41,112 bases of DNA from Planctomycetota bacterium (GTDB lineage: Bacteria; Planctomycetota; Phycisphaerae; Tepidisphaerales; Tepidisphaeraceae), in NCBI GenBank assembly GCA_039182125.1, contig JBCDCH010000032.1, positions 1-41,112 on the forward strand, read 5' to 3'. The notes beneath the pieces are model-generated. The model ran no database searches. It was not told where the DNA came from and saw nothing but the letters and a program-made list of their open reading frames with translations. The number at the start of each line of letters is the position of its first letter. Positions within the stretch are counted from its first letter, which is position 1. Below are positions 103-9,523 of this stretch, one piece after another. A program made the position numbers and the translations under genes.

Positions 103-1041
103 CTAACTGTTAGCGGCGACGGGCTGATGCGCGTCGTCGAAACCGAGACGGTTGAGGCTCGCCTCGCTGTAGCCCTCCGCGTTGGAACGCAACACCGCGA
201 CGTAACCGATCATGATGCCGTAGATCACCTTCGACACGACGTCGGCCACGGTGTAGGCACCTTGACGGATGACCGCCGACTCCTGCGAGATGCTCACGGC
301 CGGCATCAGGTAGCCGACGAGGTACAGCATCCACGAACCGACCAGCGTCCAGACGACGGCCTTCATCCACGTCCGCGCGACCGGCGGCAGCTTGGAGAGG
401 TTGTCGGCCGAGAGCCCGACCTTGAGCACCAGTACGAGGATCCACGCGTAGAACACGCAGGACACCACGAACCACAACCAGTACGGCCACGGCTGGCCGA
501 CGCTTCCAACGGTGTTGCCTGGTGTGAGCACGCTCGGGTCGGCGGCGGCGATGGCCGCGAGATTGCTTGCCGCATCGGTCGGAACTGCTTCGAAGTACTG
601 GCCGATGTAGCCGGTGTAGATCATCAGCAAACCTGCGATGGTGAACTGGATGACCGGCGACCAGAACTTCTTGCCGACCAGGCCGAAGACCACCACGAAC
701 TGCGCGAGCAGCACCGGCACGTCGATCGACCAGTTCACGTAGCGATAGCCGTTGGAAAAGGCCGTGCCCGTGAGCGCCCCGAAGACGGTGCCGCCGGTGG
801 CCGACTCGACACCGCTCATGGTGCTCTTCCAGACGATGTACTGGTTACCAAGTTCCAAAGCGGCCGACACCATGACCACGGCACCGAGCCAGTTGGCGAT
901 GCGATACTTCGGCGCGATCTGCTTGGCCGTCACGATGAAGTAAAGCAGGCCCGCGAACATACACGCGGCCCCGAGGGACAGAACGTGCGCGATGGTTAGC
1001 TGCGCCCACGGGGCGAAGACGATGTAGTTCTCCATGACCAT
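103..1041 (-). CDS. NDQ-type sodium-pumping rhodopsin
   Basis: This is a seven-helix microbial rhodopsin of 312 residues, a light-driven inner-membrane ion pump using retinal. Helix C reads RYVNWSIDVPVLLAQ, placing Asn103, Asp107 and Gln114 at the three pump-defining positions. This is the NDQ motif of KR2-type Na+ pumps, not the DTE/DTD of proton pumps. Helix G reads ADVVSKVIYG, with Asp267 and Schiff-base Lys271. Other KR2 positions recalled from its sequence are kept: His19, Asn50, Ser59, Glu151, Arg259 and Gly279. Differences from KR2 are an N-terminus about 11 residues shorter, Thr instead of the interface Na+-site Asp102, and an extra roughly 30 residues in the extracellular D-E loop. 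The start at 1041 is preceded by AGGAG nine bases upstream; a second ATG lies at 1035. The gene overlaps the end of crtY-blh by 46 nt, so translation is probably coupled. Na+ specificity is inferred from the motif. Confidence 0.93.
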   Translation of the reverse strand: MVMENYIVFAPWAQLTIAHVLSLGAACMFAGLLYFIVTAKQIAPKYRIANWLGAVVMVSAALELGNQYIVWKSTMSGVESATGGTVFGALTGTAFSNGYRYVNWSIDVPVLLAQFVVVFGLVGKKFWSPVIQFTIAGLLMIYTGYIGQYFEAVPTDAASNLAAIAAADPSVLTPGNTVGSVGQPWPYWLWFVVSCVFYAWILVLVLKVGLSADNLSKLPPVARTWMKAVVWTLVGSWMLYLVGYLMPAVSISQESAVIRQGAYTVADVVSKVIYGIMIGYVAVLRSNAEGYSEASLNRLGFDDAHQPVAANS

Positions 1042-3215
1042 GACAAATGACTCCTGGCCGAAGCGGCCGGTTGGGGTGGGGGTGGAGAGTTGAAAGATCG
1101 AGTTCGTGTCGCCACGACGGCGACAAGGATCATGTGCGGGAAAGTCAGGCAACCGAGCGTGACGAACGCGACGCGCACCGCCGAAGAGGTCGCGGTTACC
1201 GACTGAATGTTCGATATGGCAAAACCGACGATCGCCGCGATGACGATCGGCGCGAGCGTCGCCGCCACCACCGGCGACCACGGACGACTTTCTCTGCAGA
1301 CCGCCGCAGGCGCATCGACGACATCGCTGAGCAAGTGCCGGGCGGAGTGCCAGACGGCAAAGTAGATCGCAAACGCGATCAGCGGTGGCGGCATGATCAA
1401 TGCGAATGTGACGACTGCGAGCTCAAGCGCCGACCACCATCGACGCATGACGAGCGAAGCCATCACCAGCATGAGAGCCGCGATGAGCGTCGGCAAGCCC
1501 AGCGTTGCGAGGACCATCGTCATGCTGCTCGCCGATGCCGCGCCGACCAGTACCGTCAGTGCCCAGGTCACCGCGTCAGGGTGCAACAGCGCCGGCAACG
1601 TCAATGGCATCGCCCCACGCACGGCCGACACCGCGAACTCACCGGGTCCACGCGGAAGTAACGCGGGAAGTTCGCCGAACCCGAAGTGCAGCCAAGCCAG
1701 AACGAAGAACGCCCAATGCCACACCGACGGAGCCAGCACGTACAACGCAAGCGCGACCAACGTCAGCGCCAGGTATCCGCCACCGAAGCGCAACCGCCCG
1801 GCACGGTCATCACCCAAAAGATCGCGTCCGAGCCAAACGTCGGTCGCACCGTGTGCCATGCCGACCGAGGCCGCAAGCACAAGAAGGACCACCTGCAACG
1901 TGACCGGCAGTGTTGCGACAGCGGCGAGTACGGCCAGGACCAGCGTCGCAGCGACCGCAATCCTGCGATGTGACTGCCACGCATCACGCGGCGGAAACCG
2001 CTCGGCCAGACCACCGACGATCGCCTCGTGTGCAAACGGAAACTTCGGCATCGCGGCGATGACGGCCAGGCAATCCGACAGCTGCGGCACGTCACTCAAA
2101 AACCGCGCGAGCCGGTCAGGCCGAGTCCGTGCGAACAGGTCCGCGAACACTTTCGGGAAACTGGCCGGCTCACGACGCATGCGACGCAGAAACACCGCAT
2201 CCAGATAGCGAATCGCCGCAGGACGGCGGGGGACGGCTGTTGCCGTTCGTTGCCCCGCAAGTTGCTCGGCGATCGCCTTGGCCTGACGCTGAATCTGCAG
2301 AAACGCGTAGCCGGTCGAGGGCCTACACGCCCCGCCGGCGACGCCGAGACGGATCACGCCGTCATTGCTCGACACACGGTCGCTGGACGGCGACATCGGC
2401 AGCGTACCGGATTCGCAATGGCCCTCGGGCAACCGACGCCAGCCCGGCATCGACCGCGCGACCGCCGCGTCCAGCCGTGCCCAACCCTCCGTTGCCGACA
2501 CAGGCTCGGCGAGCATGCCCGTCCACTCCACGAGAGCCCTGCCCCGCCCTTGCGGCAACACGTAAAGAAACTCCACACACGGGCTTTCGCCCGACTGTTC
2601 GACCGCCTCGAAGTCCATCAACGTGGCGCAGCCGCCGTCGGCATCAGATCCGTCGATGTTCTCGTAATCCGCCCCGGCGAATTGTTGCACGACCTCCCCT
2701 CGCTCGACCGCAACCCGCGCGAACCCGTGCGGGTCGTAGTTCGTCGGTGGCCTGGTATCGACCACAACATCGCCCGACACACGCCGGCGCTCACCAGTCG
2801 GTGTCTCGATCATCACGCCGGTCGCATCGCTCGGTCCGACGGCTTGGGCATGCAAAAAACTGACGCGGTTACTCTTTTGCAACCGCGTCAGCATCAAGTC
2901 GTAGAACCGGTCGGCCGGCAGACAGCAGTACGCCAGCCCGTTCATGGATCGCTCGACCACACGTCCGTCGCGATCCACAACACGCCAACGGTCCCAACGA
3001 TCCTGGATGACATTCAACACGGCTCGCGGAACGTCGCGGCGTGTTTCGTCCGGCAACCAGAAGCACCACGTCCGGTCTCGTGTGTAAATCGTCCGCGGCT
3101 CGACGATCGTGATGGGCCCGGTGTCTTGATCGAGCAGCCTCCAAGCGAGGCTCAACCCGGCGCATCCTCCGCCGAGGATCAACACGCTCGATTCATGACT
3201 CGGGCCGTGATTCAT
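996..3215 (-). CDS. crtY-blh: Lycopene beta-cyclase / beta-carotene 15,15'-dioxygenase fusion (CrtY-Blh)
   Basis: One uninterrupted 739-residue reading frame carries two enzymes. Residues 1 to about 405 are a CrtY-type lycopene cyclase: dinucleotide-binding GGGCAG at 15-20, the RTWCFW motif near 48-53, and AGGACRPSTGYAF at 293-305 near the end of the fold. Residues about 417 to 702 form a multi-helix membrane domain of the Brp/Blh family. Its candidate iron-ligand histidines are in GMAHGATD (455), WLHFG (510), VWHSARH (623, 627) and FPHM (694). Expected reactions are lycopene to beta-carotene, then central cleavage to two retinals. In most rhodopsin clusters crtY and blh are separate genes. 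The last 35 or so residues are low-complexity, Pro/Ser/Arg-rich, and overlap the rhodopsin start in another frame. The ATG at 3215 has AAGGAAAGG just upstream. No crtE, crtB or crtI lies in the window, so lycopene must come from elsewhere. A sequencing error that joins two genes is unlikely, because both parts and the linker read cleanly in one frame. Confidence 0.9.
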   Translation of the reverse strand: MNHGPSHESSVLILGGGCAGLSLAWRLLDQDTGPITIVEPRTIYTRDRTWCFWLPDETRRDVPRAVLNVIQDRWDRWRVVDRDGRVVERSMNGLAYCCLPADRFYDLMLTRLQKSNRVSFLHAQAVGPSDATGVMIETPTGERRRVSGDVVVDTRPPTNYDPHGFARVAVERGEVVQQFAGADYENIDGSDADGGCATLMDFEAVEQSGESPCVEFLYVLPQGRGRALVEWTGMLAEPVSATEGWARLDAAVARSMPGWRRLPEGHCESGTLPMSPSSDRVSSNDGVIRLGVAGGACRPSTGYAFLQIQRQAKAIAEQLAGQRTATAVPRRPAAIRYLDAVFLRRMRREPASFPKVFADLFARTRPDRLARFLSDVPQLSDCLAVIAAMPKFPFAHEAIVGGLAERFPPRDAWQSHRRIAVAATLVLAVLAAVATLPVTLQVVLLVLAASVGMAHGATDVWLGRDLLGDDRAGRLRFGGGYLALTLVALALYVLAPSVWHWAFFVLAWLHFGFGELPALLPRGPGEFAVSAVRGAMPLTLPALLHPDAVTWALTVLVGAASASSMTMVLATLGLPTLIAALMLVMASLVMRRWWSALELAVVTFALIMPPPLIAFAIYFAVWHSARHLLSDVVDAPAAVCRESRPWSPVVAATLAPIVIAAIVGFAISNIQSVTATSSAVRVAFVTLGCLTFPHMILVAVVATRTRSFNSPPPPQPAASARSHLSWSWRTTSSSPRGRS

Positions 3216-8389: not shown

Positions 8390-9523
8390 TCAAACCAAAC
8401 CGTTGAGACGATTGATCAGTTGCCGTAATCGGCCGTGATCCTTGCGGTTGAAGGTGAACGACAGACGGGTCAGGTGACGAAGGTCCGGCTCGTTGCGTTC
8501 GAGCCGCAGCGGGCCGCTCACACGCCAGTTCTGCTCCACCGCGATGTCGGCAAACGTCTCGGCGATCTCATCGAGTTGGGCATCGGTCGGCTTGTGCTGC
8601 AGACGTAGGAGCAACCGGTTGCGCGTGTAACGCAGCGAGTGGTAGTTCTTGTAAAACGCCTTGCACTCGTCGACCGCCTCTTCGACGTTGACGGCGATCT
8701 TGTAAAGGTGCAGGTCTTCGGGGCTGATCAGTCCGCCGGCGAGCAAGTGATCCCGGACGTACTCGTCCCAGGCTTTCCAGTACGAACCGCCCGGTTTCTC
8801 GAGCATCACGATCGGCACCGGCACGCTCTTGCCCGTCTGCACCAGCGTGAGTGCTTCGAAGCCTTCGTCCATGGTGCCGAACCCGCCCGGGCAGAGCACC
8901 ACCGCATGGCTCGTGCGCATGAACATCAGCTTGCGGGTGAAGAAGTACTTGAAGTCGACGAGCTTGGTGTCGCCGTCGATGACGGTGTTGGCCGACTGCT
9001 CGAAGGGCAGGGAGATGTTGAGCCCGAAGGAGGCGTCGGTGTCGGCCCCGACATGGCCGGCCTCCATGATGCCGCCGCCGGCGCCGGTGATGATCATCCA
9101 TCCCGCCGACGCCATCGCCCTGCCGAACTGTGCCGCAGTTTCGTAATCCGGATGCCCTTCGGGCGTGCGGGCCGAGCCGAAAATGCTGACCTTGCGTGTG
9201 TCGCGGTAGGGTCCGAAAACCCTCAGGGCGTAGCGGAGTTCCTTGAACGATTTGTCGATGAGTTTGATGTCGCCACGGTTGGTTTGGTCCCGCAACAGCT
9301 TGAGCGCGCTTTTCATCACGTCGCCGACGAGGTCGCCGTTGTTCAAGTCAGCCAACTCGGCCACGAGTTCGTCGACCAGTCCGCGAGCCTTGGCCAAGTC
9401 CTCGTCGCGTACCGGCTGGTTCCGCTCGATGGTCTCTTGAGTCGCCTCCGCGTTGGCGCGAGTGACGGTGTTGCGTCGCTTCTGCGACTGGGCATCGGAT
9501 CGATCGTGCTTGCGTGACTGCAT
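8390..9523 (-). CDS. LOG-family Rossmann-fold protein (long form)
   Basis: This 377-residue protein carries the two LOG/TIGR00730 signatures: GAGGGIMEAG (phosphate-binding glycines) and PGGFGTMDE, the PGGxGTxxE motif of nucleotide-5'-monophosphate nucleosidases and cytokinin-riboside phosphoribohydrolases. Such enzymes split AMP or other NMPs to base and ribose-5-phosphate. The core (about 115-290) is extended by an N-terminal helical region and a C-terminal region of about 85 residues, longer than typical 180-230-residue LOG proteins and closer in size to PpnN-like proteins. The exact substrate cannot be read from the sequence. ATG 9523 follows a TATCCT hexamer by six bases. It is divergent from the RCK_N gene. 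Confidence 0.85.
   Translation of the reverse strand: MQSRKHDRSDAQSQKRRNTVTRANAEATQETIERNQPVRDEDLAKARGLVDELVAELADLNNGDLVGDVMKSALKLLRDQTNRGDIKLIDKSFKELRYALRVFGPYRDTRKVSIFGSARTPEGHPDYETAAQFGRAMASAGWMIITGAGGGIMEAGHVGADTDASFGLNISLPFEQSANTVIDGDTKLVDFKYFFTRKLMFMRTSHAVVLCPGGFGTMDEGFEALTLVQTGKSVPVPIVMLEKPGGSYWKAWDEYVRDHLLAGGLISPEDLHLYKIAVNVEEAVDECKAFYKNYHSLRYTRNRLLLRLQHKPTDAQLDEIAETFADIAVEQNWRVSGPLRLERNEPDLRHLTRLSFTFNRKDHGRLRQLINRLNGLV

Follow-up and report, generated by a model that had tools for sequence, protein, structure and literature searches.

A rare in-frame fusion of a CrtY-type lycopene cyclase and a Blh dioxygenase beside a rhodopsin gene in Planctomycetota

Retinal is needed for rhodopsin phototrophy and is also made in engineered microbes. 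Fungal CrtYB is a bifunctional lycopene cyclase/phytoene synthase and, like the protein described here, joins a lycopene cyclase to a neighboring pathway enzyme; it differs, however, in its partner, in its CrtYc/d-type cyclase, and in having no retinal cleavage. Separate crtY and blh genes of rhodopsin or carotenoid clusters in many phyla belong to the same families and have the same order and short spacing as the two halves of the planctomycete gene, but they encode two polypeptides rather than one chain. The protist Thecamonas trahens has a CrtI-CrtB-CrtYc/d-Blh protein (XP_013761525.1) that was described as a possible, genome-derived retinal route (PMC10016063). This protein also carries a lycopene cyclase and a C-terminal Blh in one chain, yet it is eukaryotic, its cyclase is of the unrelated CrtYc/d membrane type, and CrtI and CrtB are part of the same polypeptide (PMC10016063). 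By contrast, the fusion reported here is bacterial, consists of only two domains, and has a FAD-dependent CrtY-type cyclase. The joining of a cyclase to Blh is therefore already published in a eukaryote, and the idea is not wholly new. The open-access literature yielded no description of a FAD-type CrtY-Blh fusion in bacteria (most subscription journals lay outside the search); the bacterial fusion is real, conserved, and rare.

One frame encodes a cyclase and a Blh domain

The analyzed stretch of DNA (hereafter, the window) comprises 41,112 nucleotides of a contig of a planctomycete genome. Its minus strand holds a single open frame of 739 codons that starts with ATG (996–3215; coding part 999–3215, stop codon 996–998). 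Pfam hmmscan of the 739-aa product returned PF05834 and PF15461 only, plus a weak FAD-binding match; the CrtI, CrtB, and CrtYc/d domains that accompany Blh in the eukaryotic multifunctional CrtIBY-Blh chain are absent. A sequence-only reading of this DNA had proposed that CrtY and Blh share one frame with their key motifs kept, and this was borne out: each domain matched its own Pfam family above the cut-off, and the motifs were recovered in the comparison below.

The N-terminal domain (aa 11–395; 2031–3185, minus strand) matched PF05834 (Lycopene_cycl) over profile positions 2–376 of 380 (E = 1.7e-42, 146 bits against a cut-off of 23.4). It scored below the NCBIfam cut-offs of TIGR01789, an equivalog model (39.4 against 215.2 bits), and TIGR01790 (74.4 against 209.5 bits). 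Since the CrtY equivalog cut-off was missed, the exact ring product is uncertain, and we assign the domain to the CrtY family with a product that is predicted. Motifs were compared with those of 87 further cyclases and of 80 further Blh domains drawn from the surveyed loci. In an alignment anchored by both fusions (see below) and three in-frame read-through pairs, the checked motifs aligned correctly. The window cyclase has an intact GGGCAG dinucleotide-binding motif (GxGxxG; G15/G17/G20), DRTWCFW (D47–W53), and the catalytic-type acid E230, which is Glu in 87/87 other cyclases; GACRPSTGYAF (TGYAF; G302–F305) is also kept relative to these 87 proteins.

The C-terminal domain (aa 447–700; 1116–1877, minus strand) is assigned to the Brp/Blh beta-carotene 15,15'-dioxygenases. 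It matched PF15461 (BCD; E = 4.8e-35, 121.9 bits against a cut-off of 28) and passed the NCBIfam cut-off of TIGR03753 (blh_monoox; 131.4 against 95.25 bits). H455, H510, H623, and H694 are each matched by His in at least 78 of the 80 other Blh sequences, and H627 in 76. We noted a clade-specific A454 in both fusions where the Blh PHG motif usually has Pro. Neither domain had a convincing match among solved structures in a PDB sequence search.

In an AlphaFold model built on a 29-row alignment (mean pLDDT 79.6, pTM 0.60), an alpha/beta FAD domain leads into an all-helical one, the latter mostly with pLDDT 85–98, and confidence breaks at aa 400–408 and aa 718–739 (both pLDDT <50). Foldseek matched the first part of the model to FAD-enzyme folds, among them those of geranylgeranyl reductase and flavin monooxygenases. 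The second break lies in the C-terminal tail (aa 705–739; 999–1103, minus strand), which is poorly conserved, predicted to be disordered, and runs out of frame over the leader and start of the rhodopsin gene. The codon-position GC pattern is gone in its last block, and only 5 of 19 aligned residues are common to the second fusion. The last ~30 residues are thus probably a non-functional run-on over the rhodopsin leader.

A second fusion in another genus and the question of an artefact

In our survey, the order to which the window genome belongs is represented by 26 species of one family. Two of these 26 encode a BCD protein, namely the window species and one of another genus (genome G012), and in both it is fused to CrtY. 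The two fusions are about 50% identical over aa 10–704, and a rhodopsin gene lies directly downstream in each genome. At the position of E230, the G012 fusion (L002:1447–3684) has Asp instead of the otherwise invariant Glu; the cyclase of G012 could be weakened or altered by this change.

One objection would be that an assembly or sequencing error joined two adjacent genes that are in reality separate, as is the case in almost every other bacterium. Separate crtY and blh genes, adjacent or overlapping, are indeed the norm, and the window genome is a draft of 131 contigs. However, G012 has the identical architecture at the above level of divergence, and the linker between the domains (aa 396–446; 1878–2030, minus strand) is conserved and varies synonymously. 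Between window and G012, 22 of the 44 aligned codons of aa 396–440 encode the same amino acid, of which 16 are synonymously changed, and the difference rates at codon positions 1, 2, and 3 are 0.41, 0.30, and 0.75, respectively. Such third-position bias is as expected of constrained coding sequence. GC by codon position also stays regular across the domain junction, and the window linker has no internal start codon with a Shine-Dalgarno sequence; candidates from aa 440 onward would cut the first Blh helix. Codons 405–417, singled out in the sequence-only reading as the place where a frameshift might lie, gave no indication of one. A frameshift artefact is excluded by the in-frame G012 fusion, the conserved linker, and the continuous codon-position signal; more broadly, G012 has already largely refuted assembly error, to which we assign hardly any probability.

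The rhodopsin neighbor and the carotenoid supply

A rhodopsin gene (103–1041, minus strand; 312 aa; PF01036, E = 4.3e-29) directly follows the fusion on this strand, in agreement with the neighbor originally proposed for the fusion. Its ATG at 1041 is overlapped by the final codons of the fusion frame, and a Shine-Dalgarno-like AGGAG (1051–1055, minus strand) precedes this ATG by 9 nt. The G012 fusion ends 17 nt ahead of the rhodopsin start and does not overlap it. We also noted a GC-rich inverted repeat (GGCCG CTT CGGCC, 1056–1068, minus strand) within the fusion tail, abutting the rhodopsin Shine-Dalgarno sequence.

The window and G012 rhodopsins are 74% identical. The best PDB match of the window protein was 8QLE (1.7e-54), which we take to be ErNaR, and alignment to 8QLE placed an NDQ motif at N103/D107/Q114, an additional Glu at E63, and the Schiff-base lysine position at K271. 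The G012 rhodopsin shares the NDQ residues and this Glu and likewise has 8QLE as its nearest PDB entry. An NDQ sodium-pump subgroup with an additional Glu counterion has been described (PMC11006869). The window rhodopsin has the N-D-Q positions and the extra Glu of this ErNaR subgroup in common with it (E63 corresponds to E64 of ErNaR; PMC11006869), and it is thus probably a light-driven NDQ sodium pump of the same subgroup. That paper names neither Planctomycetes nor blh (PMC11006869), whereas the rhodopsin reported here is planctomycete and lies beside a fused retinal enzyme.

Apart from the fusion and the rhodopsin gene beside it, neither genome has any PF05834 match, BCD, or rhodopsin. Other contigs of the window genome encode two desaturases that pass the cut-off of the CrtI-family model, four polyprenyl synthases, and one gene of the phytoene/squalene synthase family, which scored 240 bits with HpnD and 229 bits with cyanobacterial CrtB, below both cut-offs. 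As the sole member of its family, this synthase cannot form an HpnC/HpnD pair, making phytoene synthase its likelier role. A C40 supply in the window genome is therefore probable, judged from gene content.

A predicted lycopene-to-retinal enzyme and its alternatives

We propose, with a probability of roughly 85%, that the gene encodes a single bifunctional lycopene-to-retinal enzyme that is membrane-tethered, serves one rhodopsin, and stems from one fusion event. The N-terminal FAD-dependent CrtY domain would cyclize both ends of lycopene to give beta-carotene at the cytoplasmic face of the membrane. The multi-helix Blh domain, held by the short linker, would then cleave beta-carotene at the 15,15' bond, giving two retinals for binding by the product of the next gene downstream, a rhodopsin that is probably a light-driven sodium pump. 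The linker includes a conserved basic WQSHRR directly N-terminal to the first Blh helix, which suggests, by the positive-inside rule, a cytoplasmic N-terminus and fits a cytosolic CrtY. As the fusion is single-copy, the genome probably makes no other cyclized carotenoid via PF05834, the cyclase family covered by the search, and the product of this sole PF05834 cyclase would be committed to retinal. We infer the reactions, the membrane orientation, the dedication of cyclized product to retinal, and any kinetic gain through fusion.

Fusion implies equal stoichiometry and co-location of CrtY and Blh, and would thereby fix the two activities at 1:1 and keep them together in the membrane. The 1:1 ratio suggested in the sequence-only reading follows from a single chain and agrees with the lack of an internal start with a Shine-Dalgarno sequence in the window linker. 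The low-confidence stretch of the linker (aa 400–408), together with a pTM of 0.60, suggests a flexible tether between cyclase and Blh, and the model gives no evidence of a tunnel. We regard it as unlikely that beta-carotene passes from the CrtY site to Blh without entering the bulk membrane, in a cell whose single cyclized carotenoid is the source of retinal for one sodium-pump rhodopsin.

The same stretch and the lack of a confident domain interface would also be expected if the polypeptide were cut after translation, or if the domains acted independently, the fusion then providing co-expression alone with no channeling or tether effect. Separate crtY and blh genes suffice in other bacteria, in keeping with this alternative. 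On the other hand, the linker is conserved rather than drifting freely, and no protease site was identified. We consider cleavage or independence somewhat unlikely.

Alternatively, only one domain of the fused protein might be active; for example, Blh could be active beside a degenerate cyclase, with an altered product pathway. Both domains lie on long branches in their trees and G012 carries E230D where all 87 other cyclases have Glu, two points against a bifunctional enzyme, and the cyclase also falls below the equivalog cut-offs. However, the window cyclase retains every strongly conserved residue that was checked, E230 among them; the genome has no second PF05834 cyclase from which beta-carotene could come; and change is constrained in the linker as well as in both domains. 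We consider a protein with one active domain improbable. A bifunctional enzyme thus remains the preferred reading, with a function that is readily predicted and readily tested. As a natural single-chain enzyme from lycopene to retinal, it would offer a clean test of whether tethering a cyclase to the dioxygenase raises flux, a question that two diverged copies in a single-copy setting make directly testable. As a Rosetta-stone link, the fusion would also support the view that CrtY and Blh cooperate physically in bacteria where the genes are separate.

Distribution and origin of the fusion

PF15461 passed its cut-off in 21 of the 397 genomes sampled from the class and in 15 of the 392 sampled from the phylum, together about 29 different genomes. 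The fusion is present in 2 of these roughly 29 BCD-bearing planctomycetes. We further scanned species-representative genomes with two short cyclase patterns as the query. The best 80 matches listed, from many phyla, included no fusion; in most of them, crtY and blh are two neighboring genes, consistent with the initial view that separate genes are usual. Viral contigs, phages, and plasmids yielded no fusion either, the plasmid matches being cyclase alone on Streptomyces-type plasmids.

Among the matches listed, crtY lies just before blh in 58 close pairs (a few of these loci are near-duplicates); relative to crtY, blh is in the -1 frame in 45 of them, in the +1 frame in 9, and in the same frame in 4. 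In at least 33 of the 45 -1-frame pairs, the blh start overlaps the crtY stop by 4 nt (e.g. L045, L058, and L097). Such 4-nt overlaps across phyla probably reflect translational coupling, and tight pairing of crtY and blh is hence not special to the fusion. Three pairs from actinobacterial genomes leave no gap: blh starts, in frame, right after the stop codon of crtY (TAA GTG, TAG ATG, and TAG GTG; L038:1643–1648, L039:3448–3453, and L042:6225–6230). With one stop codon between the genes, a single substitution would fuse such a pair. Overlapping or abutting pairs being the norm, the natural route to a fusion is a small indel at the overlap or loss of the stop.

The fusion probably arose only once in this lineage, out of crtY and blh genes that were adjacent or overlapping. 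Both domain trees group the window and G012 proteins as sisters on long stems (SH-aLRT 99 and 100), as fits a single fusion origin, and the sparse distribution fits loss or limited transfer after that one origin.

Three other long frames were rejected as candidates. A 769-aa frame around Blh in another planctomycete (G239) is a chance high-GC frame over a rhodopsin gene, without a cyclase, and the long CrtY frames in L040 and L092 carry no further domain and represent chance N-terminal extensions. At the G239 locus (L020), a separate Blh gene lies right after a rhodopsin gene, with no adjacent crtY in the stretch examined. Lastly, a LOG/lysine-decarboxylase-like gene (65% identical) is found near the cassette in both fusion-bearing genomes (window 8393–9523, minus strand; G012:C8:28379–29383), but on opposite sides, suggesting shared descent with rearrangement.
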